This document shows, piece after piece, positions 16,550-30,280 of a DNA stretch of 64,000 nt; within the stretch, counting starts at the first letter, position 1; the number at the start of each line of letters is the position of its first letter. The notes under the pieces are model-generated. The model saw nothing but the letters and a program-made list of their open reading frames with translations. It searched no databases and was not told where the DNA came from. Location: positions 7,130,001 to 7,194,000 of the forward strand of contig NZ_CP108938.1 in the NCBI RefSeq assembly GCF_036347135.1. Reading direction: 5' to 3'. Both the position numbers and the translations under genes were made by a program. This DNA is from Streptomyces sp. NBC_00775 (GTDB lineage: Bacteria; Actinomycetota; Actinomycetes; Streptomycetales; Streptomycetaceae).

Positions 16550-18508
16550 ATGTCTGCCGAATCCGCTGTATCGGTCTTCCCGCAGCTCGAAGCTCTGCTC
16601 CCGCATGTGCAGAAGCCGATCCAGTACGTCGGCGGAGAGCTCAACTCCACGGTCAAGCCCTGGGACGCCTGTGACGTCCGCTGGGCGCTGATGTACCCCG
16701 ACGCGTACGAGGTCGGGCTGCCCAACCAGGGCGTCATGATCCTCTACGAGGTACTGAACGAGCGCGAGGGCGTTCTCGCCGAGCGCACGTACAGCGTCTG
16801 GCCGGACCTGGAGGCGCTGATGCGCGAGCACCAGGTCCCTCAGTTCACGGTGGACAGCCACCGCCCGGTGAAGGCCTTCGACGTGTTCGGCCTGTCCTTC
16901 TCCACGGAGCTGGGCTACACGAACATGCTGACCGCCCTGGACCTGGCCGGGATCCCGCTGGAGTCCAAGGACCGCACGCTCGACGACCCGATCGTCCTGG
17001 CCGGCGGCCACGCGGCCTTCAACCCGGAGCCGATCGCCGACTTCATCGACGCGGCGATCATCGGCGACGGCGAGCAGGCCGTCCTCGACATGACCGAGAT
17101 CATCCGCGCCTGGAAGGCGGAGGGCCGGCCGGGAGGCCGCGAAGAGGTCCTCTTCCGGCTGGCGAAGACGGGCAACGTCTACATTCCGGCGTTCTACGAC
17201 GTCGAGTACCTCCCCGACGGCCGTATCGCCCGAGTCGTGCCCAACAAGTCGGGCGTTCCGTGGCGCGTGTCCAAGCACACGGTCATGGACCTCGACGAGT
17301 GGCCGTACCCGAAGCAGCCGCTGGTCCCGCTCGCGGAGACGGTCCACGAGCGCATGTCGGTCGAGATCTTCCGCGGCTGCACCCGCGGCTGCCGCTTCTG
17401 CCAGGCGGGCATGATCACCCGCCCGGTGCGTGAGCGTTCCATCACGGGCATCGGCGACATGGTCGAGAAGGGGCTGAAGGCGACCGGCTTCGAGGAGGTC
17501 GGCCTGCTGTCCCTGTCCTCCGCGGACCACTCGGAGATCGGCGAGATCGCCAAGGGCCTGGCCGACCGGTACGAGGAAGACAAGATCGGCCTCTCGCTGC
17601 CCTCCACCCGCGTGGACGCCTTCAACGTCGACCTGGCGAACGAGCTGACGCGCAACGGCCGCCGCTCGGGCCTGACCTTCGCCCCCGAGGGCGGCAGCGA
17701 GCGCATGCGCAAGGTCATCAACAAGATGGTCTCGGAAGAGGACCTCATCCGGACCGTCTCGACCGCGTACGGCAACGGCTGGCGCCAGGTGAAGCTGTAC
17801 TTCATGTGCGGCCTTCCCACGGAGACGGACGACGACGTCCTGCAGATCGCCGACATGGCGATGAACGTGATCGCCGAGGGCCGCAAGGTCTCCGGCCAGA
17901 ACGACATCCGCTGCACGGTCTCGATCGGCGGCTTCGTCCCCAAGCCCCACACCCCCTTCCAGTGGGCGCCGCAGCTCTCCGCCGAGGAGACGGACGCCCG
18001 CCTGGAGAAGCTCCGCGACAAGATCCGCGGCGACAAGAAGTACGGCCGCTCGATCGGCTTCCGCTACCACGACGGCAAGCCGGGCATCGTCGAGGGCCTG
18101 CTCTCCCGCGGTGACCGCCGCATCGGCTCCGTCATCCGCGCCGTCTACGAGGACGGCGGCCGCTTCGACGGCTGGCGCGAGCACTTCTCGTACGAGCGCT
18201 GGATGCGGTGCGCGGACAAGACGCTCCCCGCGTTCGGCGTGGACGTCGACTGGTACACGACGCGTGAGAAGACGTACGAGGAGGTCCTGCCCTGGGACCA
18301 CCTGGATTCGGGGCTGGACAAGGACTGGCTCTGGGAGGACTGGCAGGACGCCCTCGACGAGACCGAGGTCGAGGACTGCCGCTGGACTCCGTGCTTCGAC
18401 TGCGGTGTCTGCCCGCAGATGGACACTCACATCCAGATCGGCCCGACGGGCAAGAAGCTGCTGCCGTTGACGGTGAACAAGCCGGTGACCAGCGGACACA
18501 GTCACTGA
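16550..18508 (+). CDS. TIGR03960 family B12-binding-domain radical SAM protein
   Basis: A 652-residue enzyme of unknown substrate. The first ~250 residues resemble a B12-binding (Rossmann) region (WALMYPDAYEVGLPNQG, VFGLSFSTELGYTNMLTALDL). The radical SAM core follows, with the iron-sulfur motif CTRGCRFC (C277, C281, C284), then the glycine-rich SAM contacts (GLLSLSSADHSE, FAPEGGSERMR). The C-terminal part ends with a cysteine-containing segment, CRWTPCFDCGVCPQM, that could bind a further cluster. Its partner TIGR03936 (29462) is usually found close by in actinobacteria; here nearly 11 kb separates them. The ATG at 16550 was preferred over open frame further upstream, which overlaps the CHAD gene. 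Confidence 0.93.
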   Translation: MSAESAVSVFPQLEALLPHVQKPIQYVGGELNSTVKPWDACDVRWALMYPDAYEVGLPNQGVMILYEVLNEREGVLAERTYSVWPDLEALMREHQVPQFTVDSHRPVKAFDVFGLSFSTELGYTNMLTALDLAGIPLESKDRTLDDPIVLAGGHAAFNPEPIADFIDAAIIGDGEQAVLDMTEIIRAWKAEGRPGGREEVLFRLAKTGNVYIPAFYDVEYLPDGRIARVVPNKSGVPWRVSKHTVMDLDEWPYPKQPLVPLAETVHERMSVEIFRGCTRGCRFCQAGMITRPVRERSITGIGDMVEKGLKATGFEEVGLLSLSSADHSEIGEIAKGLADRYEEDKIGLSLPSTRVDAFNVDLANELTRNGRRSGLTFAPEGGSERMRKVINKMVSEEDLIRTVSTAYGNGWRQVKLYFMCGLPTETDDDVLQIADMAMNVIAEGRKVSGQNDIRCTVSIGGFVPKPHTPFQWAPQLSAEETDARLEKLRDKIRGDKKYGRSIGFRYHDGKPGIVEGLLSRGDRRIGSVIRAVYEDGGRFDGWREHFSYERWMRCADKTLPAFGVDVDWYTTREKTYEEVLPWDHLDSGLDKDWLWEDWQDALDETEVEDCRWTPCFDCGVCPQMDTHIQIGPTGKKLLPLTVNKPVTSGHSH

Positions 18509-18520
18509 CCTGGCGATTTC

Positions 18521-18552
18521 CCGAGGCCCCTGCCCATCGGCGGGGGCCTCGG
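18521..18552 (+). terminator. terminator after the TIGR03960 gene
   Basis: A 10-bp perfect stem (18521-18530 ccgaggcccc with 18543-18552) with a 12-nt loop, 12 nt after the stop. Confidence 0.65.
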
Positions 18553-18608
18553 CGCATGGGTACCCCGGCCCGGCTGTGTGTGATCTGTGGGGGCTAGGAT
18601 CTGCTGCC

Positions 18609-19151
18609 ATGCACAGTGGTGGGGATCACATACAGTCGACCGGGCAGGACGCGGACATCGCGTTCGTCTACGAGCCGACACCGGCCGACTACGAGGCCGC
18701 GATGCGCCGTTACACGTACGGGACCTGGCCCGGGCGAGGGGGCCTGATCGTCTGGCCGGCCCTGATCCTGGTGCTGGTGTTCTTCTTCTGCGAGCTCAGG
18801 GGTTTCGCACCCGCGATGACGGCGATCGTGGTCGTCGCCGGAGTGGTCGCCGGAGTCGTGACCACCCATAAGACCCTGGCTCGCGTCGCGCGGGAGCAGC
18901 ACGCGGACATGGAGGACTACGGGACCTGCCGGACGGTGGTCGGTGACGAGGGGATGACGACCACGGGCGGGTCCCAGGCCAGCACCATCGACTGGCAGGC
19001 GTTCCCCTGGTACGTCGAGACCGGCGAGCTCTTCGTCCTCACGACCCGGCGGACCCGGATCTTCTTCGTCCTGCCCAAGCGCGGAGCCCAGGACCCCGCC
19101 GACGTGGACCGGGTGCGGGCCGTCCTCGACCGCAACCTGCGCCGGTTGTAG
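18609..19151 (+). CDS. YcxB-like family membrane protein
   Basis: A 180-residue protein with a soluble N-terminus of about 45 residues (FVYEPTPADYEAAMRRYT), two adjacent membrane helices (GLIVWPALILVLVFFFC and AMTAIVVVAGVVAGVVT) and a C-terminal beta-rich domain (STIDWQAFPWYVETGELFVL, RRTRIFFVLPKR). That arrangement matches YcxB-like proteins, which resemble bacterial PH domains; function unknown. I chose the ATG at 18609 over an in-frame start 33 nt upstream because the longer N-terminus looks non-coding. It opens the accessory segment and converges on the TerD gene. Confidence 0.78.
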   Translation: MHSGGDHIQSTGQDADIAFVYEPTPADYEAAMRRYTYGTWPGRGGLIVWPALILVLVFFFCELRGFAPAMTAIVVVAGVVAGVVTTHKTLARVAREQHADMEDYGTCRTVVGDEGMTTTGGSQASTIDWQAFPWYVETGELFVLTTRRTRIFFVLPKRGAQDPADVDRVRAVLDRNLRRL

Positions 19152-19262
19152 GTCCGGGGCGAGTCGCACCCGAATCACGGTGCCGAGCGTGATCTCCCGC
19201 GGCCCGGGCGCCACTTGGGTACCGGACCGCGGGGACCCCGTCCTGCCCGCTGATGAGATGAA

Positions 19263-19847
19263 CTACTTGCTGATGGCGAAGCGCATCAGGGCGTGCTCGT
19301 CACCCTGCTTGATCTTCCCCGTCACATTGATCACCTCAAGCTTCCAACTGCCGCCGTCGCGCACGGCCTTGGCCACGGCACAGCCGTTGTCTTGGGTGAG
19401 CAGGCTCGGCCAGATGTCGGCGACCTGCTGAGTGCTGCCCCCGCTCGCGTCGTACACCTTGAAGCTGATGTTGCGCGCCTTCTGGAAGGAGGCGCCCTTC
19501 TTGTACGCGGCGGCGATGAACACTATCGACGTGACGTTGGGCGGCAGCCGCGAGAACTCGACCGTCACCGTCTCGTCGTCGCCCTCACCGCGCCCGGTCT
19601 GGTTGTCGCCGCTGTGAACCAAGGAGCCATTGCCCATGGGGTCGAGGGAGTCGAGGCCCGCCAGACGCACCGGGTCCGCGCCCTGCATGGCGACGGCGAT
19701 CAGGTCGAGGTCGGTGCCGGTCTTGCGGCGGAGCATGCCTACCACTCCGCCGCTGCTGCCGGCGGTCGGGTCCCAGGACACCCCGATGGACAGATGCGTT
19801 ACTCCGTCCAGATCTGCCGGGCCGTCTTCCTTGGAGAGCGTAATCAT
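19263..19847 (-). CDS. TerD family protein
   Basis: A 194-residue protein of the TerD/stress-response family, whose members bind Ca2+ and occur in chemical-stress and defence-linked Ter systems. Family features are LSIGVSWDP near the start, DLDLIAVAMQG, LVHSGDNQTGRGEGDDETVTV with the acidic GDDE calcium site, and the strand-rich end. The ATG at 19847 (MITLSKEDGPA) is preferred; the frame is open upstream, but that part overlaps an arsenite methyltransferase remnant in the same frame and is not expected to be translated as one protein. TerD genes are frequent in Streptomyces, so the link to the CHAT operon upstream on the same strand is only positional. Confidence 0.85.
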   Translation of the reverse strand: MITLSKEDGPADLDGVTHLSIGVSWDPTAGSSGGVVGMLRRKTGTDLDLIAVAMQGADPVRLAGLDSLDPMGNGSLVHSGDNQTGRGEGDDETVTVEFSRLPPNVTSIVFIAAAYKKGASFQKARNISFKVYDASGGSTQQVADIWPSLLTQDNGCAVAKAVRDGGSWKLEVINVTGKIKQGDEHALMRFAISK

Positions 19848-19989
19848 GCGTGGGTCATCCTCTTGGTGGCCGGAATACAACACGCAAAGTGTGCCTGGAA
19901 GTTCTGGGAATCCAAGCGTCGGCCTGGCATAAACCTTCGAAACCATCCACCCATGTCCGTCTATTTCATGCTCGTCGAGTCCCTTGGGT

Positions 19990-20166
19990 TCAGGGCTTGG
20001 TGGCGCGGACGACGGCGGAGTGCATCCCGTCGGCCACCGGGTGGGTGGGGGTGACCTCGACCTGGTGAACCTTGCCGCCTCCAGGCCTTCGCGGTACTCC
20101 GCGAAGGAGAGGGCGCCTGCGACGCAGCCCACGTAGTCGCCGCGCTCGGCCCGCTGTTGGGGCGCG
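19990..20166 (-). pseudogene. frameshifted C-terminal remnant of an arsenite methyltransferase-like protein
   Basis: Two overlapping minus-strand frames together spell the conserved end of ArsM-type methyltransferases. One frame gives QRAERGDYVGCVAGALSF followed by AEYREGLEAARFT. The other frame picks up with KVHQVEVTPTHPVADGMH followed by SAVVRATKP and a stop at 19990. The switch lies near the codons for EAA/GFT, consistent with a single-base insertion or deletion. No SAM-binding N-terminal part is visible upstream, where 20170-20251 is a short run of gaccgac/ctgaccggctg repeats. The stretch 19848-19989 between this remnant and the TerD start shows no gene. The identification is from memory of the family and has not been searched. 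Confidence 0.7.
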
Positions 20167-20251
20167 GCTTGGTGACCGAACTGACCGACCCGACCGGCTG
20201 ACCGACCTGACCGGCTGGTTCCGCGCACCGGTTCGGTGAGGTGACACGGCA

Positions 20252-20773
20252 CTAAGGCTGATCCGGGCCTCCGCCGCCGGGGCCTCCGCCGCCGGTCAGC
20301 ATGGACCACAGAGTGGTGGCGAGTTGCTTGATCAGGCTGTCGCTCGCGGGCTTCTTCTCTATCTCCAGGCTCACTTCGGTCTTGCCGTTCTTGCGATGCA
20401 CCTTGAGATCGATCTTCGTCTGCAGCCAGGCGACGATCGCGGCCAGCACGGCGGCGGAGACGACCAGGGAGTCCGTCACCATACGGTTGTCGACGGGCGG
20501 GTCGTCCAGGATGGACCCCACGGTGTCGGCTGTGTCGGGATCCGTGGCCAGACCGTCGAGAAGGTTCCGTCCCACCGTGACCGCTTGTTCCTCGGACGCC
20601 AGCAGCGAGTCGATTCCGAGGGCCGTGGCGTGCGACAGGACCGCGTCGATGGCCGCCGTGGCGAGTTCCCGGTCGTCGATTCCCGCCGCCCCGACTTCTC
20701 CCTGATCTTCGGTGAATTCCTGGAGACTTCGGACGAGGCTCTGTGCGCTGAGGCCTTCCGGTGTGCTTCGCAT
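20252..20773 (-). CDS. small membrane protein of the TPR-CHAT operon
   Basis: A 173-residue protein of unknown function. An acidic N-terminal helical region of about 95 residues (QSLVRSLQEFTEDQGEVG, ATAAIDAVLSHATALGI) is followed by one membrane helix (DSLVVSAAVLAAIVAWLQ). A basic, strand-forming cytoplasmic segment comes next (KIDLKVHRKNGKTEVSLEIE), then a helix and a Gly/Pro tail. A membrane helix followed by a two-stranded hairpin resembles the small effector-associated component described in actinobacterial NTPase/CHAT conflict systems, but I cannot confirm homology. The ATG lies only 1 nt beyond the CHAT stop (TGACATG), so the two are translationally coupled and probably act together. 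Confidence 0.75.
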   Translation of the reverse strand: MRSTPEGLSAQSLVRSLQEFTEDQGEVGAAGIDDRELATAAIDAVLSHATALGIDSLLASEEQAVTVGRNLLDGLATDPDTADTVGSILDDPPVDNRMVTDSLVVSAAVLAAIVAWLQTKIDLKVHRKNGKTEVSLEIEKKPASDSLIKQLATTLWSMLTGGGGPGGGGPDQP

Positions 20774-20774
20774 G

Positions 20775-23700
20775 TCATCTCCAGTCGCCGGACAACGTCA
20801 GCCCGGCCCAGTGGTAGGGATGGCTCCAGGGCGCCTGTTCGGGATGTCGCATCAGCCGGCGTTGAGCGTCCCAGAACGCTCTCCAGGTCGGTACGGACGG
20901 ATCTCGGGCAAGGCGCCGGTAGAACTCGGCCAGCAACGCCCGGCTGCTCGTTCTGTCCACGTCCCACAGGGCGGCGACCACCGCGTTGGCTCCGGAGATC
21001 ATCAGTGCCCCGGCAAATCCGTCGCGCTCGTCCTTGTCCGCGCTTTCCGTGACCCTGGCCGTGGAACACGCCCTGAGGGTCAGGAGGTCCAGCCTGGCGG
21101 AGTTGGCCAGGATCTGCCGGACGGAGAGAAGGTGATCGAGCCTCTTGCGCAGCGACTGGCGTCGGAAGTCCGCGGGCGGGAGCTCCTGCCCGTCGGACAG
21201 GATCAGCCCCGAGTCGAGTGGATTCGCGGGGTCGAAATAACCGTGGCACGTCAAGTGCATCACGCGTTCATGGCCGAGCCGGCTCAGGACTTCCGACGGC
21301 GTGAGCTCGACGGCGGGGACGGTGTGCACCTGCCACCCCGCGTCCGCGAGCAGGTGCGTGTCATCGAGTTCGGCCGGCTGATCGCCCGTGCCGTCTTCGG
21401 CGCGGGTGGGAACAGCGGCCACGAAGGCGCCCTTGTCTCCGTCACTCCGCGCCTCGGACGCGCGGGCGGTGATGTAGAGCAGAGAGCTGATGTTCGGGAT
21501 GTAACTCACTGCCGTGTGTTCGATGATGTACCGCTGGTCTTTCGGACACTTCAGCGCGTGCAGTGGAATTCCGTGCAGTGGGCCGTCGGGTGCGAGGCAG
21601 ACCAGGCCATCGTTTCCGGCGGCTCGTTCGGAGAAGTCGACCAGCGGGGAGAGTGCGTCGAGGAAGGACAGGTCGCGACGCCACGGCCGATTCCTGTTCA
21701 GAGGTGCGATCGGCGGGAAGACGCTCTCGTCACCGTCGAAGGTGCGCTGGAGTCGTTCCGCGCAGTCGGCGAGTTGTCCTCGCGTGACGGGTGTCTGTGT
21801 CGAGGTGAGGGTGCCGTCAGGGGCGACCTCGAACATCCAGGTCGTCGTCCTGCCGCAGAGGTAGGACACCAGTGACGCGCCGTCGCCGCGCCGCGCGAGC
21901 ATCGCCCTGGATTCCGCCAGCGTCGCCGGCGTGGATTCCCTGAGCCGGACATAGGCCGGTGCCACGGCACGTATGCGCTCGTGCAGTGCGGTCAGCTCAT
22001 CCTGAATGTTCCGCACCCGGTCGGCCCGGTTCGTCCCCCGCACCAGAACGTCATCCGGTGTGTCCAGAAGGTCACGCATCTCGCCCAGCAGCAACTCTTC
22101 GCGATCGGCGAGCTCCGAGGGGACGCCGGCCGGCACGGTCAGCTTGGCGCGTGCGTATCTGGCCAGGATGTACAGCGACTTGGCTTCCTCATGGACATCG
22201 AACGCGAGCTCCGTCGCGTCGCGCTGGTCCGGGAGGGGAACGAGGTCGCCGTGGTCGAAGAGCAGGGTGATGAGCTGCTCGCACAGAATCCTGAGGTATT
22301 CGGTGTCGACTCTGCTCGATGTCCTTCCCTCGCGGCGGATCTCGTCCACGACGCGGGTGCGTGTCGTCCAGAGCAGCTCGAAGGCCCTGACCTTTTCCTG
22401 TTCGCCGCCATGGGCGCAGAGTGTCTCGGCGTACTGGAGCGTCGCTCTCAGTGCCGTCTCGTTCTCCGGCTCCGCCCCGGTGGCGACCTCGTAGAAGTAG
22501 CGAGTGATGTCCATCGCGACAGCGTGGTCGTCTTCCTCGAGGGCATTCGCCAGCAGGACGCCGAGCGCGGCCTCCAGCAGACCGAGCTCGCCCGTGTCCT
22601 GGGCCTGTTGTGCGTCTCGGAAGGCAGCCACCAGCAGCTCGTCGGTGATCCTCTGGGGAATGCCGGCCATCTTGCGGTAGAAGACCGTGGTTGCCTGGTA
22701 GGCGTCTCCTATTTTCTTGCCCGCCTCGAACGCACTGGCATAGAGGTCACTGGCCTCGGCGACTTCACCGCGGCGCCGTGCGTCGTCGCCGAGAGCGAAA
22801 AGGCTGTGCATCTCCTGAGGGCTGCGGGTTCCCAACTGTCGTTGCAGCGCGAGTGCTTCGCGGTACAGGGGCACCGCTTCGTCGGCACGGCCGGCGGCAC
22901 TGAGGATGTGGCCCACATTGTTGAGTGCCGAGGGCAGGAGGCCCGGCAGGAGTTCCGTCCGGGTCCAGTCCAGTAGGCGGTAGCCTTCCCGCGCGGCGCT
23001 TCGATGAAGCCCCGCCTTGGTCAGCGAGGCCATGGCATAGGTGTACGCCGTGAAGACCTCTTGTGTTTTCCCGGCGGCCCTCCCTTCCGTGGCCGCCGCC
23101 AGGTAGCACTCCCGGCCTTCCATGTAGTGACCCAAGTCCTCGTGAAGCAGGCCGAGCAGCGTCCAGATCTCGGCCTTGAGCGCACGGGCTTCGACTACGC
23201 GCTCAGAGACCAGCGTCTCGTGCCACGGGTACTCGAGTGCCGGCTGCAGAACGCTCAGGGCCGCTGCGGACTGGGAGAGCCGGCGGAGACCTTTTGCCCT
23301 TTTGAACCGGGTCCGGGCGTGCCAGATCACGCTGTCGGCGGTCGGCTCGGGCGGTCCGGCCACTTCGCCGGCCGTCCGGAACGCGGAAACGGCGACGGGC
23401 AATAAGTCGATCTCCAGAGAACGCTGCCCGATCATTTCCATGAGCTCGTGCGGCGGGCGCGTCCCCGCGGCGTTCTCGATATCCACCTGAAGGCGCTTCA
23501 AGTGGCGCTCCACCCACGTGTGTTTGCCCTGTGTGTTCCAGTAGGCCATCCACTCCAGACGGGCGAAAACACGGCTCATCGGGTCACCGCTCGCGAATAC
23601 CAACGCGACATAACTTGCGACTTTTTCGCGTTCGAACACCCCGGAGTGCCTTCTCATGATCTCGAAGAACTCCGCCGTGTTCGCGAGGAGGGGCCGGTCG

Positions 23701-24203
23701 CCGGGAACTGTCACCGAACGCAGGTAGCGGTATTTGGCCAGCACACCCGACAACTCGTCCAGTGCCGACAGCAGATCCGGGAAGTTCACCGTTGACCGCT
23801 CACCGTCCGGTGGGGGCGTCCTGTCCGCAAGGGATCGATCTTCTGCCGTACCCCGCGCGCTCCATGCCGTCTCCAGCGTGAGCCTTGCCAGTTCGGCCTG
23901 TGCCGGGCGGCCTTGACTCTCCAGTTCGAGGGAGCGCCGGTGCAATCGGTGGAGCAGCCAGACGACGTAGGGAAGGTCCGCGCTCTCGATCACTGTCACC
24001 ACTTGTGACGGTGACTCCGCCGAGAGGACTCTGCCGATCAATTCCTCCGAAGTCAGGCCCGACTGCATCTCGAAGAGACGCTCTCCTGTGGCCAGGAACA
24101 TGCGGAACAGCTCTTCCGGATCGCGCTCCGTGAACTCGCCGAGCGTCTCGGGGGTGACGGACAACGCCCTCACGAACAGGCGTCGCTCCACGTCATCCAG
24201 CAC
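20775..24203 (-). CDS. TPR-repeat CHAT domain caspase-like protease
   Basis: A protein of about 1142 residues. The C-terminal ~330 residues form a CHAT domain, a clan CD (caspase-like) protease fold. The catalytic dyad is visible: His987 in MHLTCHGYFDP and Cys1046 in LRACSTARV, about 60 residues apart as in the family. Other CHAT landmarks are LAPDGPLHGIPLHAL, GANAVVAALWDVD and the final WAGLTLSGDW. The middle ~650 residues are helical with several recognisable TPR units (AGRADEAVPLYREALALQ, GEVAEASDLYASAFEAG). The GTG at 24203 follows a GGAAGGGGG site and overlaps the upstream gene by 11 nt; an ATG at 24242 would add 13 residues. TPR-CHAT proteins act as proteases triggered by partner proteins (Craspase is one example). 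The trigger and substrate here are unknown. Confidence 0.88.
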   Translation of the reverse strand: MLDDVERRLFVRALSVTPETLGEFTERDPEELFRMFLATGERLFEMQSGLTSEELIGRVLSAESPSQVVTVIESADLPYVVWLLHRLHRRSLELESQGRPAQAELARLTLETAWSARGTAEDRSLADRTPPPDGERSTVNFPDLLSALDELSGVLAKYRYLRSVTVPGDRPLLANTAEFFEIMRRHSGVFEREKVASYVALVFASGDPMSRVFARLEWMAYWNTQGKHTWVERHLKRLQVDIENAAGTRPPHELMEMIGQRSLEIDLLPVAVSAFRTAGEVAGPPEPTADSVIWHARTRFKRAKGLRRLSQSAAALSVLQPALEYPWHETLVSERVVEARALKAEIWTLLGLLHEDLGHYMEGRECYLAAATEGRAAGKTQEVFTAYTYAMASLTKAGLHRSAAREGYRLLDWTRTELLPGLLPSALNNVGHILSAAGRADEAVPLYREALALQRQLGTRSPQEMHSLFALGDDARRRGEVAEASDLYASAFEAGKKIGDAYQATTVFYRKMAGIPQRITDELLVAAFRDAQQAQDTGELGLLEAALGVLLANALEEDDHAVAMDITRYFYEVATGAEPENETALRATLQYAETLCAHGGEQEKVRAFELLWTTRTRVVDEIRREGRTSSRVDTEYLRILCEQLITLLFDHGDLVPLPDQRDATELAFDVHEEAKSLYILARYARAKLTVPAGVPSELADREELLLGEMRDLLDTPDDVLVRGTNRADRVRNIQDELTALHERIRAVAPAYVRLRESTPATLAESRAMLARRGDGASLVSYLCGRTTTWMFEVAPDGTLTSTQTPVTRGQLADCAERLQRTFDGDESVFPPIAPLNRNRPWRRDLSFLDALSPLVDFSERAAGNDGLVCLAPDGPLHGIPLHALKCPKDQRYIIEHTAVSYIPNISSLLYITARASEARSDGDKGAFVAAVPTRAEDGTGDQPAELDDTHLLADAGWQVHTVPAVELTPSEVLSRLGHERVMHLTCHGYFDPANPLDSGLILSDGQELPPADFRRQSLRKRLDHLLSVRQILANSARLDLLTLRACSTARVTESADKDERDGFAGALMISGANAVVAALWDVDRTSSRALLAEFYRRLARDPSVPTWRAFWDAQRRLMRHPEQAPWSHPYHWAGLTLSGDWR

Positions 24204-25335
24204 GGTCGCCCCCTTCCAGGAGTTCGCGAAGAGCGGTGACATCGGCCCGGTCCGAGTCGTCCAGGGCTGTTTCCTCGGCCGCCGACAGATGCCGTTCCGC
24301 CTCTTCGCGCCGGCCGGCGGCCCAGTACACCTGTGCCACGTTGAAGTGGATGTTGTGGGGGATGTCTTCGATGCGCGCCAGCTCGTCGGCGAGGCGAAGC
24401 GCCGCTTCCAGATCTCCCGACACCCAGACCGAGAACATCAACATGGCTTTGTAGTCAGGGCTGTCGGGCAGTTTCTTGACGAGCTCCCGGATCGCCTCGA
24501 CGGTTGCCGGAGACGGGCCCCCACTGCGCGCGACCTCGTCGAGAAGCAGCAGCTTGCGGAGTCCGTACGCCCGCGTGGCCGCGTCGGACGGCCCGCTCAG
24601 TCGCGCCCGCTCCAGTTCCGGCGAGTGGGGGGCGATCTCCTCCAGGGTGCGCAGGAGTGCGGATGCCTCGTCGTCGCGGCCCGTGACCGTGTAGGCGACC
24701 GTCAGTTTTTCGAGCACCTGGGGGTTCTCGGGGGCCGCCGCGTGGGCCCGCTCCAGCACGGTGACCGCCTCGGGCAGGCTGACCGGGCTCGACGGTTCCC
24801 CGGCCAGGGTCAGAAGCAGGCTGCCCAGTTCATGGAGATCCGCCGCACCGCTCTCCCCGTACTGATCCCGCTCGCGGAGCGCGGCCAGACGTACCTGCTG
24901 GAACCTGATCCGCGCCGACTCGGCGGCCCGCCAGTCCCGGAGGTGCCTGAGCCGGTCGCCGGCGAGCGTCTTCAGGGGGCTGTCCTCCGCTTCTGCCGCG
25001 ACCCGTTCCAGCTCCTCCAGGGCCACCGCGGGCAGATCGATCAGCTGGAACAGCACCGCCAGGTTGAGCCGGGCCGACAAGAGGTCCGGATGTCCGTCCA
25101 GCAGGGAGCGGAGGACGGAGATGGCCGACTCGTGGTGGCCCAGCGCCCCGAGGGCCAGAGCCAAGAGGTGCGCTTCCCGTGTACCGCCGCTCTCCGCCGC
25201 TGCCGCGAACTCCGCGAGCAGCGCGTTCCGTTCCGTCGCCGGCAGCGTCGCCAACGAGGTGATCCTCGCGAGGTCCCGCTCGTCCCCGTCTATGAGCCAT
25301 CGGGCGTCCGCGCCGATCAACCGTTCCGTGTCCAC
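24193..25335 (-). CDS. TPR-repeat protein, first gene of the CHAT operon
   Basis: A 380-residue, all-helical cytoplasmic protein built of tetratricopeptide repeats: ALGALGHHESAISVLRSLL, LLSARLNLAVLFQLIDLP, NPQVLEKLTVAYTVTGRDDE and HFNVAQVYWAAGRREEAERH are good TPR matches. No catalytic domain is apparent. The GTG at 25335 follows a ggggggagg site about 11 nt upstream. Its 3' end overlaps the CHAT gene by 11 nt, so it is translated with it. A likely role is as adaptor, sensor or inhibitor of the CHAT protease; this is inferred only from the repeat type and the coupling. Confidence 0.85.
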   Translation of the reverse strand: MDTERLIGADARWLIDGDERDLARITSLATLPATERNALLAEFAAAAESGGTREAHLLALALGALGHHESAISVLRSLLDGHPDLLSARLNLAVLFQLIDLPAVALEELERVAAEAEDSPLKTLAGDRLRHLRDWRAAESARIRFQQVRLAALRERDQYGESGAADLHELGSLLLTLAGEPSSPVSLPEAVTVLERAHAAAPENPQVLEKLTVAYTVTGRDDEASALLRTLEEIAPHSPELERARLSGPSDAATRAYGLRKLLLLDEVARSGGPSPATVEAIRELVKKLPDSPDYKAMLMFSVWVSGDLEAALRLADELARIEDIPHNIHFNVAQVYWAAGRREEAERHLSAAEETALDDSDRADVTALRELLEGGDRAG

Positions 25336-25554
25336 GTGGGCAACATGCCTCCCCCCGGGGTCATGTCACGTCGAGGCCTCAAATATGCCAGAAGGGTTGA
25401 ACCCTGCCTATAGAAAATATGTACGGAATATCATGAGTTCTACGCGTTCAGAGTCGGCCGCACTGGTGTGATGCCACAGCTGACGCCACCTCATGTCCGC
25501 TACCGCGCTTCCTTTTTGGACGACGGTCGGCGGCGGGCCGTTGCGGGGGGCCGC
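25336..25554 (-). promoter_or_regulatory. upstream region of the TPR-CHAT operon
   Basis: The gap upstream of the TPR gene contains an unusually AT-rich patch (about 25407-25435, tagaaaatatgtacggaata) in which a minus-strand -10 such as TATAGG could lie. Between it and the gene is a 13-bp palindrome, agggttgaaccct (25393-25405), a candidate operator. Neither has been tested and the -35 is unclear. 25436-25554 holds nothing further that I can see. Confidence 0.4.
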
Positions 25555-25597
25555 AAGGGGTGTCCGGGGGGCTTCGCGAACCCCTCGGACACCCCTT
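25555..25597 (-). terminator. terminator after the collagen-like gene
   Basis: A 17-bp stem with one mismatch (25555-25571 with 25581-25597, aaggggtgtccg... and complement) and a loop of about 9 nt lies 60 nt beyond the stop of the minus-strand collagen-like gene. It insulates that gene from the TPR-CHAT operon on the same strand. Confidence 0.7.
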
Positions 25598-25657
25598 ATT
25601 GCACCTGTTACCGCAGCCGGCTGACACGCGTGGTGAGAGCCGGCTGCGGTGCGTCCG

Positions 25658-26545
25658 TCACGTGCCGGCGTTGACGACGCCCGGGGACGGCTGCCGAGTC
25701 ACCTTGGTCCAGCGGTTGGGATTGCCCAAGGAGTCGTTGCAGTTCAGGGTGGCGTCGGGTTGGCTGTTGACCGCTAGGCAGGTGGTCTCCCAGACCTGGC
25801 CCGTGGTGGTCATGACGTCGAACTTGATGGGAGTCCCGGTGTTGGCGCCATGTCCGTTGACGGCGACTCCACAGGCGAAGCCGACGACGTCGTCCGCCGG
25901 GTAGTCGGCGTGGGTGCTGAGGTCGGTCCACAGGAAGGGGTGGGCAGTGGTGTCCCTGAGGTCACGGATGCCCGCGTAGGTCTTTCCGCCGCTCAGTGCG
26001 ACCCGCAGTTCGAAGTTGGTCGCGTCCTGCTGGGCGTCGATGTCGGCGCACGGACCGGTGGCTCCTGTCGCGCCCGTGTGACCGGTCGCCCCGGGCCGAC
26101 CCGGCGTGCCCGTGGCTCCAGTAGCCCCTGTGTGGCCGGTGGCGCCCGTGTGGCCGGTGGCCCCGGTCGCCCCGGGCCGACCCGCCGCGCCCGTGGCTCC
26201 AGTAGCCCCCGTCGCGCCCGTGTGGCCGGTGGCCCCCGTGGCCCCGGTCGCGCCCTTGTGGCCCCGCGGGCCCGTCGGGCCTGTCGGCCCCCGCCTGCAG
26301 TCGGCCCTGTCGTGGCCGCCGGCGGGTCCGCTCAGCTCGCGCTTGTGGTGGGGCTTCTTGCACTTGTCGCCGCCGGCGGGGTTCGTCAGGGTCGCGTGGC
26401 CGGTCACGCTCCGCGCTGCCGCCGTGGCGGGGCTGACCACGCCGGTCGCCAGGATCAGCGTCAGCGAGGCGAACATGCCCGCCTTCTTGAATCTCTCTCG
26501 CGCCAGCGGCCCCAGCCGCGATGCCGCCCTGAACTCAGGATTCAT
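25658..26545 (-). CDS. secreted collagen-like (Gly-X-Thr repeat) protein
   Basis: A 295-residue exported protein. After a basic start (RERFKKAGM) comes a signal sequence ([18 protein letters not shown], cleavage after about TAAA). Residues 86-163 (26057-26290) are 26 consecutive Gly-X-Y triplets, mostly GAT and GHT with GRP and GPT, a collagen-like triple-helix track. The C-terminal ~130 residues are a separate non-repetitive domain with four cysteines (GPC, FACGV, TTCLAV, LNCND), probably a trimerisation or binding head. The ATG at 26545 follows an AAGGAG site 9 nt away. In other Gram-positive bacteria such proteins are surface or spore-coat fibres; the role here is unknown. It is a single-gene unit. 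Confidence 0.85.
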
Positions 26546-26848
26546 GTACGTACTCCTTGCTTCGAACGGGTTGGGGGGTGTCCCCGAAGCCGATCGCGAG
26601 CTTGACCCGGGCACGCCGGGCCAACGGGCACAGCCGGTCGGAACGCGCACGTACATCATCAAATCGGATTAATAAAGGCCTCCATATAGGGACATATCAG
26701 CCCTTTGGTTCACGCTTGAACTTGGGTGAGGCCAATTGGGCGCCGTTCCGGCCCGCCCCCGCGCGGACGAAGGCCCTTGAAACCGGCCTGTGCCACATTG
26801 GCGGCCGCCCCTCCGCCAGGCAGCCACCACCCCGGAACCGGTGAGGCC
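26546..26848. promoter_or_regulatory. divergent promoter region (collagen-like gene / GT2 gene)
   Basis: A 303-bp intergenic stretch between divergent genes. It includes an AT-rich block at about 26660-26700 (aatcggattaataaaggcct, then ccatatagggacatatcag) that stands out from the high-GC background and probably carries promoters for one or both sides. I see no reliable -35/-10 pair and no gene. An open frame continues upstream of the GT2 start to 26726, but its codons look non-coding. Confidence 0.4.
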
Positions 26849-28027
26849 GTGAAGCAGCAGACCATCTGCCTCTGCATGATCGTCAAGAACGAGTCGCGTG
26901 TGATCGAACGGTGTCTCGGCTCCGTTCGCCATCTGATCGACACCTGGGTCATCTCCGACACCGGCTCGACGGACGGCACGCGGGATCTGATCCGCAAGAC
27001 GCTCGACGGCATCCCGGGCGAACTCCACGAGGAACCCTGGGTCGACTTCGGGCACAACCGGACCCAGAACATCCGGCACGCCCGCGGCAAGGCCGACTTC
27101 CTGCTCACCATCGACGCCGACCATGTGATGCGCCAGGACGCGCCGTTGCCACGGCTGACGGCGACGTCGTACATGATCCGCTACGACACTCCGGGCACCC
27201 AGCACCGTTTCAAGCACCTGATGCGGGGCGACTGGGCCTGGCGCTACGAGGGCGTCACCCACGAGTACCCGTGCACCGACGAGCCCGACGTCCAGGAGAA
27301 CCTGGACGCGCTGGTGATCGAGGACCACGCCGACGGCGGCTGCCGCAGCGACAAGTTCGAGCGTGACGCGCGCCTGCTGCGGGGCGAGCTCGCCCGCGAC
27401 CCCGCCAATACGCGCACGGTCTTCTACCTGGCCAACACCGAACGCGACCTCGGGCACGCGGAAGAGGCCATCGCCCTGTACGAGCGCCGTGCCGAGATGG
27501 GCGGCTGGGTCGAGGAGGTCTACTGCTCGCTGTTGGAGGCCGGTCTCCTCAAGGCCGAGAGGACCGGCGACTGGCCCGGGGCGATGGACGCCTTCTCCCG
27601 CGCCTGGGAGTCCCGTCCGCAGCGGCTCGAAGCCAGCTACGAACTGGCCTCACGGCTGCGTCTCCAGGGCCGCTATCACACCGCGCACGCCATTCTCGGC
27701 GCCGCCGTGGACAAGCCCGAGCCGGACGACCTGCTCTTCACCAAGGGCTGGGTGTACCGCTGGGGCCTGCTCTTCGAGTTCTCGATCACCGCGTACTGGG
27801 TGGGCGACCACGCCACCTCGATCCGGGCCTGCGACCGGCTGCTGGCCATGCCCGACCTGCCCGAACCGATCCGCGCCCAGACCGAGATCAACCGTGAGTT
27901 CTCGGTCCAGCGCGTAGCCACCGTCCCGCCGCCGTCCACGGGCCGGCGCAGGCCGAAGGCGTCCCGGGCCGGCAAGGCCGCCAAGATCTCCAACATCGCG
28001 AAGGCGGCCAAGGCGGCGAAGGAGTAG
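26849..28027 (+). CDS. family 2 glycosyltransferase with TPR-like C-terminal region
   Basis: A 392-residue cytoplasmic protein. The N-terminal GT-A fold has TICLCMIVKNESRVIERCL, the nucleotide-sugar motif SDTGSTDGTRD and the DxD-type metal motif TIDADH. The C-terminal half is helical with TPR-like units (LANTERDLGHAEEAIALYER, EASYELASRLRLQGRYHTAH), a layout seen in several actinobacterial GT2 proteins. The last ~40 residues are basic and Ala/Lys rich. The GTG at 26849 starts at conserved sequence with a ggtgagg site. The donor and acceptor are unknown. The stop TAG is followed in frame by another 35 sense codons to 28135. Confidence 0.82.
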   Translation: MKQQTICLCMIVKNESRVIERCLGSVRHLIDTWVISDTGSTDGTRDLIRKTLDGIPGELHEEPWVDFGHNRTQNIRHARGKADFLLTIDADHVMRQDAPLPRLTATSYMIRYDTPGTQHRFKHLMRGDWAWRYEGVTHEYPCTDEPDVQENLDALVIEDHADGGCRSDKFERDARLLRGELARDPANTRTVFYLANTERDLGHAEEAIALYERRAEMGGWVEEVYCSLLEAGLLKAERTGDWPGAMDAFSRAWESRPQRLEASYELASRLRLQGRYHTAHAILGAAVDKPEPDDLLFTKGWVYRWGLLFEFSITAYWVGDHATSIRACDRLLAMPDLPEPIRAQTEINREFSVQRVATVPPPSTGRRRPKASRAGKAAKISNIAKAAKAAKE

Positions 28028-28150
28028 GCCCGGGGCGGCAAGGTGATCGAGGCGGGCGGTGGGGAGTTCGAGGACGAGCGGGGCGGGAAGTTGCGGTACT
28101 GGGTGCCCACCGGCCGCATCCATGGCGGCGGCTGACGCGTCTACGTAGGT

Positions 28151-29413
28151 ATGGATCTGGAAAAGGCGCCTGCTGAGCGGCCCGTGGCGCAGGCCGAGGG
28201 GTGCCTGGTCGTCGCGATCCGCATCCCCGTGCGGATCGTGGTGCTCGTGCTGGTCGTGCCGGTGCGGATGGTGTGGGACGCGCTGGTCGTCGGCGGACGG
28301 TTCCTGAGGGACACCCTGCTGCGGCCGCTGGGGCGGGCGCTCGCGTGGGTGGCGTGGGCGGTGTTCGTCTGGCCGTGGGTGGCCTTGTGGCGGTATGTCG
28401 TCGTGCCGGTCGGCAGGGCGCTGGCGTGGCTCGGGAACGTGCTGCTCGTCATCCCCGCGGTGTGGTTGTACGACACGGTCCTGACCCCCCTCGGTCACGC
28501 CATCGCGTGGGTCGCCCAGGGGATCTGGACCGGCCTCACCTGGGTGGTGCGCGGGATCGGGGCCGGACTCTCCTGGGTGTTCGGCGGTATCGCGGCCGGA
28601 CTCTCCTGGGTGTTCGGCGGTATCGCGGCCGGACTCTCCTGGGTGTTCGGCGGTATCGCGGCCGGGCTCGCCTGGGTGTACGCGCGGCTGCTCACGCCCG
28701 TCGGGCATGCGATCGCCTGGCTGTTCAAGGGGATCGGGCTGGTGCTCGCGGCCGTCGGGATCGGGATGTACACCGCCGCTGCCTGGCTGGTGCGGTACCT
28801 CCTCGTCGTACCCGCCCTGTGGTTGTACGAGTGGATCCTCGCGCCCGTCGGCAGGGGCATCGCCTGGCTGGCGCGAGGTCTCGGGTGGCTCATACGGATG
28901 ATCTTCACCGGGATCGGCGCCGCGCTCTACTGGACGGCGCGCGTCCTGCTGGTGCTGCCCGCGCTCGCCGTGTGGCGATGGGTGCTCGTACCGGTCGGAC
29001 GGGTGCTCGCCGTCATCGGCAGGGAGATCGGCGAGGCCCTGGGCCATGCCTGGCGCGTCGCCGGACACCTCTCGCTCGCCGTCGGGCGGTTCCTCGGGCG
29101 ACTCTTCCGGTGGATCTTCGTGGAGCCGGTGCGCTGGGTGTACCGGACCGTGCTGACGCCCGTCGGGCACGTCGTCCGCGACACGGTCCTGCGGCCCGCC
29201 GCCCAGGCCGCGCGCAGCGTGGGAAGGGCGACACGACAGGCCGTGGCCGCCGCCCGCGAGTCCGCCCGGCAGGCCCGCGCCGACTTCCGGCGGATGCTCT
29301 TCGGCGCCCCGCGCGAGCCCGATCCGGTCTCCTTGGGCAAGGCCCGGCGGGAACCAGGAGCCGGTGAGACACGTACTCTAGGTAGCAGTACGACCGCTCT
29401 CACGAAGGACTGA
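28151..29413 (+). CDS. repetitive Trp-rich amphipathic membrane protein
   Basis: A 420-residue protein of unknown function. Nearly its whole length is hydrophobic or amphipathic helix, organised as about seven copies of a unit that begins (V/L)(L/V)xPxG(R/H) and continues with an IAWL-type helix and often a LLVxPAxxLYxW end: LLRPLGRALAW, VVPVGRALAWLG, VLTPLGHAIAWVA, LLTPVGHAIAWLF, ILAPVGRGIAWLA, VLVPVGRVLAVIG, VLTPVGHVVRDT. Within it an 11-residue block (GLSWVFGGIAA) is repeated three times by an exact DNA repeat. The C-terminus is a basic cytoplasmic tail. Frequent Arg/Trp pairs suggest a surface-lying membrane protein rather than a simple channel. The next gene begins within 50 nt, implying co-transcription. 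Confidence 0.78.
   Translation: MDLEKAPAERPVAQAEGCLVVAIRIPVRIVVLVLVVPVRMVWDALVVGGRFLRDTLLRPLGRALAWVAWAVFVWPWVALWRYVVVPVGRALAWLGNVLLVIPAVWLYDTVLTPLGHAIAWVAQGIWTGLTWVVRGIGAGLSWVFGGIAAGLSWVFGGIAAGLSWVFGGIAAGLAWVYARLLTPVGHAIAWLFKGIGLVLAAVGIGMYTAAAWLVRYLLVVPALWLYEWILAPVGRGIAWLARGLGWLIRMIFTGIGAALYWTARVLLVLPALAVWRWVLVPVGRVLAVIGREIGEALGHAWRVAGHLSLAVGRFLGRLFRWIFVEPVRWVYRTVLTPVGHVVRDTVLRPAAQAARSVGRATRQAVAAARESARQARADFRRMLFGAPREPDPVSLGKARREPGAGETRTLGSSTTALTKD
28562..28660 (+). repeat. three exact 33-bp tandem repeats inside the membrane protein gene
   Basis: The units 28562-28594, 28595-28627 and 28628-28660 are identical and begin gccggactctcctgggtgtt. A degenerate part-copy precedes and follows them. 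Being a multiple of three, the array adds or removes 11-residue blocks without breaking the frame, so copy number may vary among strains. Confidence 0.9.
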
Positions 29414-29461
29414 ACGACACTGGGCAAGCGACAGCCCGAAGGCCCGCCGCCCGCACCCGCG

Positions 29462-30280
29462 GTGCAGCGCATCCGACTGCGCTACACCAAGCGCGGCCGC
29501 CTCCGGTTCACCAGCCACCGTGACTTCCAGCGCGCCTTCGAGCGTGCGCTGCGCCGTGCCGAGGTGCCGATGGCGTACTCGGCGGGGTTCACGCCGCATC
29601 CGAAGGTGTCGTACGCCAATGCCGCACCCACCGGTACGGGCAGTGAGGCGGAATACCTGGAGATCGCGCTCACCGAGACGCGTGACCCGGACAAACTGCG
29701 CGAGCTCCTCGACGAGTCGATGCCTGTCGGGCTCGACATCACCGAGGCGGTCGAGGCCCGGACCTCCGGGCTCGCCGACCGGCTCACCGCTTCCGTGTGG
29801 GAGCTGCGCCTCGACGGCGTGGACCCGGCGGAGGCGGAGCGTGCGGTCGAGGTCTTCAAGGCGGCCGACACCGTCGAGGTGCAGCGCAGGACAAAGAACG
29901 GCATGCGGACCTTCGACGCCCGCAGCGCCGTAGTAAGCCTTGAGACAGCCCTGGGGACAGTCCTTGAGACAGACAGTCCACAGGCTGATAGGCCGACCGA
30001 CCAGCCCTGTGCGATACTGCGGCTGGTTGTTCGGCACGTGACGCCTGCCGTACGACCCGACGACGTCCTGTCCGGTCTTCGCGCCGTGGCCGACCTGGCG
30101 CCGCCGGTCGCCGCAGCGGTGACCAGGCTGGCGCAGGGGCTGTTCGATGAAGAGACCGGCACGGTGACCGACCCGCTCGCGCCCGACCGCGAGGCAGTCA
30201 CGGCACTCCCGCCCTCTCACGAAGAGGCGGTCGCCGCATCTGCCGCCGCGAAGGCGCCGGTGCCGGAAGGTCCCGCGTAA
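29462..30280 (+). CDS. TIGR03936 family radical SAM-associated protein (DUF2344)
   Basis: A protein of 272 residues from the GTG at 29462. It starts [20 protein letters not shown] followed by [12 protein letters not shown] and has the [16 protein letters not shown] segment, both characteristic of TIGR03936, the partner of the TIGR03960 radical SAM protein. The role is unknown; the pair often sits beside rne. Upstream the frame stays open to a CTG at 29420 that would add 14 residues (LGKRQPEGPPP...) and has a GAAGGA site; related genes seem to start at this position with GTG or TTG, so a CTG start is possible here. The preceding gene ends only 48 nt upstream and rne follows after 245 nt. Confidence 0.88.

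Follow-up and report, generated by a model that had tools for sequence, protein, structure and literature searches.

Three minus-strand genes lie packed together in a 64,000-nt stretch, here called the window, of the 11.1 Mb single-contig genome of Streptomyces sp. NBC_00775. Are they neighbours by chance or a unit, is such a unit of a known kind, and what might it do? Their borders, and the features to which the argument refers, are collected in Table 1.

Table 1. The three genes and their main features (window positions)
Feature	Position	Strand	Details
Gene 1, stand-alone TPR protein, candidate sensor or brake	24193..25335	-	GTG start; 380 aa; TPR models up to E 4.2e-17
Gene 2, TPR-CHAT protease	20775..24203	-	GTG start; 1142 aa; PF12770 E 3.1e-41; TPR_12 E 9.5e-13
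CHAT protease domain of gene 2, residues 868-1140	20784..21602	-	Pfam match PF12770
Predicted catalytic His987 of gene 2	21243..21245	-	codon CAC (numbering from GTG start); His in 14/14 complete copies
Predicted catalytic Cys1046 of gene 2	21066..21068	-	codon TGT (numbering from GTG start); Cys in 14/14 complete copies
Gene 3, divergent EACC1-like small protein	20252..20773	-	ATG start; 173 aa; family-level PF19953 evidence
Hydrophobic helix of gene 3, ~residues 99-117, possible membrane span	20423..20479	-	19-residue hydropathy 2.06; helix 102-117 in low-confidence model

The gene borders given in the initial annotation were all reproduced from the sequence, as were the 11-nt overlap of genes 1 and 2 (24193-24203) and the single base (20774) between the stop codon of gene 2 and the ATG of gene 3. 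Gene 1 has, besides its TPR models, a weak match to TPR-S (PF20308, E 4.2e-5, below the Pfam family cut-off). A promoter scan found none, and the three terminator-like sites detected are no excess over the mean of 3.1 in shuffled sequence. A long G+C-rich inverted repeat at 25557-25595, after a collagen-like gene, was seen by eye and is not in the terminator scan. Third-position GC of the trio is 0.81-0.85 (values of 0.85 or less occur in 11 of the 48 genes called in the window), which is a weak hint of recent arrival.

Recurrence of the trio and its genomic site

A search with gene 3 found it in 7 of 199 genomes of the genus, the own genome included, and the protease was found (E 1e-30) in 6 of the 199, all of them among those 7. 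At six loci in five other genomes (L017-L022) the protease gene is immediately flanked by gene 3 on its 3′ side and by a TPR-type gene on its 5′ side. A gene-3 profile has matches in 9 of 392 genomes of the genus and, class-wide, in 2 of 394, both of the own genus, though this latter sample understates the spread (there are Actinomadura proteins, a complete Actinomadura copy and Kitasatospora remnants). The profile search of the genus yielded four new loci, three of them complete trios (L066, L067, L068) and one a 504-aa protease ORF with no TPR match (L065). When named genomes were scanned with a closer alignment of gene 3, 11 loci emerged, nine of them new; the other two, L117 and L124, were treated as duplicates of L065 and L068 and counted once. 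Four of the nine are complete trios, those of Streptomyces sp. CB01373, Streptomyces sp. JHA26, Actinomadura meyerae and S. benahoarensis.

Decayed copies take several forms. The TPR gene is present just as a 143-aa piece in S. natalensis and S. chattanoogensis, all three genes are broken pieces in Kitasatospora aureofaciens, a gene-3 remnant stands alone in K. griseola and S. viridochromogenes, and on the Streptomyces megaplasmid NBC_01483 a long protease ORF is accompanied by a gene 3 that is split and by a fragment of the TPR gene. The 22 distinct loci examined, own locus included, thus comprise 14 complete non-redundant copies, 7 that are partial or broken, and one counted as being without the trio (L023 of genome G158, where a gene-3 match of E 1.5e-4 carries an internal stop and the stretch has no protease or TPR match). 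Complete copies occur in Streptomyces and Actinomadura. Left out of the 22 is a protein without a locus, P0006 of Streptomyces sp. R35, in which a CHAT piece runs into a gene-3 piece (282 aa in all, ~94% identical to the window's gene 3); it is probably a deletion remnant of a close cassette copy.

In all 14 complete copies the gene order is identical, with gene 1 directly 5′ of the protease gene and gene 3 directly after it. The spacing is variable. With the starts as chosen, the 11-nt overlap of genes 1 and 2 recurs in L021 and L022 and is 4 nt in L017, L019 and L067, and the 1-nt gap between protease gene and gene 3 recurs in L022, other values being -4, -4, 34, 38 and 43 nt. The proteases of the 13 other complete copies are 25-34% identical to that of the window, no pair among the 14 reaches 90% identity, and one genome (G159) carries two divergent copies. 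The nearest relatives of both gene 3 and the protease are Streptomyces proteins. TPR repeats are recognized in gene 1 (Pfam, E 0.001) in 7 of the 10 other copies scanned; for L017, L019 and L022 gene 1 was accepted on the weaker evidence of position and alignment. Pairwise distances of the three proteins are correlated (Mantel r 0.89 for TPR and CHAT, 0.83 for CHAT and small protein, 0.73 for TPR and small protein, p 0.0001 each, with shared host ancestry still included in these values), and this correlated divergence of sequences fits a trio inherited as a unit without proving contact between its products. No fourth gene recurs: the 127 flanking genes that a simple script called contain no family shared between loci, save four common to L017 and L019. 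The trio is therefore one conserved cassette and no chance cluster, and the expectation that the three families would be neighbours in other genomes is borne out.

The window's copy is flanked on one side by a penicillin-binding transpeptidase gene, a gene for a protein of FtsW/RodA type, and CYTH-CHAD and radical SAM genes, and on the other by DUF2344 and RNase E/G genes. The interval between the radical SAM and DUF2344 genes (window 18508-29462) measures 0.7 to 14.6 kb in ten other genomes, and its cargo changes from one to another, including glycosyltransferases and, in one genome, an integrase and a resolvase; the own trio, used as tblastn query, had no match in the interval in any of the ten. 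One of them (G013, L155) keeps the collagen-like, GT2 and 420-aa genes in the window's order, without the YcxB-like gene, the TerD gene or the trio. The site, between core genes, is one of variable insertion, and the cassette counts as accessory. The TerD-domain gene just mentioned (window 19263-19847) is on the same strand as the cassette and ~400 nt 3′ of it; a search for shared neighbours did not find it in the flanks of other cassette copies. At the same site in another genome (G011, L156 7008-9149) a TerD domain is fused to an Mrr-type restriction endonuclease (PADLOC type IV restriction, E 4.6e-58).

Fold and dyad of the protease

A CHAT domain with a His/Cys dyad, as characterizes peptidase family PF12770, is present in gene 2, and the dyad reported in the initial annotation proved intact, its two residues being kept in every complete copy. 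Among solved folds, the structure model of the protease (mean pLDDT 71.5) is closest to Csx29/TPR-CHAT of Craspase and to separase. Both have a catalytic Cys with which Cys1046 aligns, so that the alignment by which the proposed dyad could have been refuted leaves it standing. The profile of the whole protease, compared with solved sequences, has TPR proteins among the best 60 of 90 matches. With the CHAT part alone, separase and TPR-CHAT are retrieved at E-values that are modest (0.0014 to 0.05).

Separase is the eukaryotic cohesin protease, and the cassette differs from it in that no securin-like partner was identified. With Craspase the likeness that had been drawn holds in part. The cassette's protease has the TPR plus CHAT architecture and fold of TPR-CHAT/Csx29, as far as the available text of PMC9729208 describes these, at ~14-15% identity in structural alignments. 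Unlike Craspase, neither gRAMP/Cas7-11 nor Csx30 was seen near the cassette, and a Pfam scan of the trio and its neighbours, covering ~10.9-34.5 kb of the window, found no gRAMP/Cas7-11 or other CRISPR effector. What remains of the comparison is the protease fold.

The small protein and its kinship to EACC1

Is gene 3 related to a known family? Alone it matches PF19953 (EACC1) with E 0.012, below the Pfam cut-off, and NCBIfam offered nothing useful for it. Its family says more. A database search with 13 gene-3 members retrieved at least 32 proteins (7996 candidates scored), and when 40 members were scanned singly, at E up to 0.1, 23 matched PF19953, the best at 1.4e-5. One member, P0012 of Actinomadura miaoliensis, carries PF19953 and is named EACC1 by NCBI. 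The 40-row family profile, compared with 30 canonical EACC1 sequences of the genus, gave a probability of 92.9 and a score of 47.4; the reversed profile scored 11.0, the best of 100 column shuffles 17.25, and none of the 100 shuffles did as well. Because of the members' matches, the naming of P0012 and the profile comparison, gene 3 is taken here as a divergent EACC1, an assignment made at the level of the family, with the own protein below the cut-off.

An alternative is that gene 3 is unrelated to EACC1 and shares with it just a pattern of helix plus beta-hairpin, in which case the cassette would be a separate kind of system. The weak match of the own protein fits this, as does the extent of the profile alignment, which is limited to residues 64-165 and leaves the first 60 residues outside. 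At E 0.1, moreover, 17 of the 40 members have no PF19953 match, 7 match PF25181 (Phage_Bbp19, best E 1.4e-4), and the gene order is the reverse of that in EACC1 systems. However, such an alternative has to account for the 23 members that do match, for P0012 and for the far lower scores of reversed and shuffled profiles, and it is considered distinctly doubtful.

With gene 3 read as a divergent EACC1, the closest known kind of system is the EACC1-caspase conflict system (‘System 4’), predicted by Kaur et al. 2020 (PMC7159879), in whose available text EACC1 serves as the marker, is described as having a single TM helix, and is encoded 5′ of a gene with an N-terminal caspase and a variable C-terminus. 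The word CHAT is absent from the main text of that paper. The initial annotation did not recognize the combination as a named system; this has to be revised, since the third protein, as a divergent EACC1, ties the cassette to these predicted systems. As there, an EACC1-type small protein is encoded beside a caspase-superfamily protease, the CHAT gene being 1 nt away in the window and directly preceding gene 3 in the other complete copies, and occurrence is patchy in filamentous actinobacteria. Unlike the published arrangement, the EACC1-like gene is 3′ rather than 5′, the protease domain is a C-terminal CHAT rather than an N-terminal caspase followed by variable C-terminal domains, and a dedicated TPR gene has been added and placed first. 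Because of the reversed order and the C-terminal CHAT, the cassette is filed as a variant and not as a standard member.

That EACC1 stands beside a caspase-type protease is a known pattern, since a C14 caspase follows 10 of 13 canonical EACC1 genes in the sample (3 of 3 in the own genome and 7 of 10 elsewhere, the latter being the 11 plus-strand loci of 30 from outside the own three, less L045, which ran off its locus). No CHAT follows a canonical EACC1 gene among the matches listed, within the lengths read, short loci being able to hide a CHAT farther on. The three own-genome EACC1 genes are above the Pfam cut-off, and each is followed by its C14 caspase (one fused to DnaJ domains).

The initial description of gene 3 as a small membrane protein is uncertain. 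There is a hydrophobic helix, with a best 19-residue Kyte-Doolittle mean above the 1.6 that 29 of 40 family members reach, but the apolar stretch is short. In the gene-3 family the longest stretch free of polar residues has a median of 11 residues, vs 14 in canonical EACC1, whose hydropathy is likewise borderline (median 1.62). Members of the gene-3 family are acidic ahead of the helix (median net charge -11) and basic in the 20 residues that follow it (median +3). From these sequence properties a membrane anchor is borderline.

Candidate functions of the cassette

The reading preferred here, at a probability of roughly 60%, is that the cassette is an accessory, self-contained conflict cassette, for immunity or regulated cell death, and a variant, with three genes and a CHAT protease, of the predicted EACC1-caspase systems. 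Its observed basis is the conserved trio, the intact caspase-like dyad, the EACC1 homology of gene 3, the patchy spread and the frequent decay of copies; from this we infer function and mechanism. Several points count against it: nothing ties the cassette to phages (a search of phage records gave no gene-3 match), gene 3 is below the EACC1 cut-off and has 60 N-terminal residues without assignment, and gene order and position of the protease domain are unlike those of published EACC1 systems. In PADLOC none of ten flanking genes has a match, and the trio has weak ones at best (E 0.0013 and 0.0038).

The conflict cassette could work as follows. Gene 1 and the TPR array of the protease itself would keep the protease off and recognize a signal of invasion, gene 1 serving as sensor or brake in the way that partners hold TPR-CHAT and separase. 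The EACC1-like protein would accompany the protease as a scaffold or a component at the membrane side. On activation the protease would cleave itself, one of its partners in the cassette or a common host protein, and the cleavage would stop the infected compartment, with arrest or death as the outcome. As no fourth gene recurs, the substrate is most simply sought within the cassette (the protease itself, gene 1 or gene 3) or in the core proteome. The suicide or signalling role suggested initially is plausible.

Filamentous actinobacteria are multicellular, and CHAT proteins besides that of the cassette are widespread in the genus, occurring at E 1e-20 in 84 of 121 genomes; both facts would suit a protease of development or stress signalling with no part in defence. 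A core developmental gene is not expected to be as rare and patchy as the cassette, however, and neither the variable insertion site nor the many decayed copies favour such a role, which is regarded as quite unlikely.

Bacterial gasdermin-protease pairs, in which a caspase-like protease gene lies beside a gene for a possibly membrane-acting protein, provide another model. The cassette has this same adjacency; it differs in that its candidate membrane-acting protein is EACC1-like. By analogy with those pairs the protease might cut gene 3 and free its hydrophobic helix to damage the membrane, the TPR protein being sensor or brake. The position of gene 3 directly after the protease gene, the conservation of its helix and the lack of a recurrent fourth gene are what such a membrane killer would lead one to expect. 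However, the apolar run is short, no cleavage site was identified, and no gasdermin is among the Pfam families listed for the 40 members (the gene 3 model, built from 13 sequences with a mean pLDDT of 51.3, is too poor for a fold search or comparison). The proposal is unlikely. Improbable too, if more far-reaching, is its extension to a gasdermin-like death switch on a new scaffold, in which the TPR protein would sense infection and free the separase-fold CHAT, and the EACC1-like substrate would be cut to give a membrane-acting fragment. Were it true, EACC1 would be a protease-gated effector and not a passive constant component, and many EACC1-caspase pairs would have to be recast.

Text searches of the open-access literature turned up no experimental paper on EACC1-caspase systems, the relevant papers among those listed being, as far as their available text goes, Kaur et al. 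2020 and its 2021 sequel (PMC8195603), and no such three-gene cassette appears in the open-access titles and abstracts listed on CHAT with TPR, Streptomyces or anti-phage defence. In the literature searched, then, the conflict cassette looks like an undescribed one, akin to a predicted kind of system. It joins two lines of work, on EACC1 conflict systems and on TPR-CHAT proteases. The former were predicted in 2020, and here is a small, tractable place in which to ask what EACC1 does; the latter are understood, in fold and in activation, from work on Craspase and separase, and with no other recurrent partner the cassette offers a route to how a CHAT protease is switched without CRISPR.

How widely CHAT and EACC1 are paired was judged from the downstream side of 35 CHAT loci, 6 of them from the own genome, which has nine CHAT matches, and 29 from other genomes, chosen as the strongest Pfam matches and not at random. 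An EACC1-like small ORF within 200 nt downstream (E <0.001) is present in two of the 35, both in the own genome: the cassette itself and L069/L078. A third CHAT locus, L070, has an EACC1-like downstream ORF at E 0.0015, without Pfam support. In L069/L078, near 9.386 Mb, the CHAT gene (L078 3630-6638) is followed at 0 nt by a gene for a 118-aa, weakly EACC1-like protein (PF19953, E 0.019), and because a second CHAT gene of the same genome adjoins such a gene, the pairing may be wider than this cassette.
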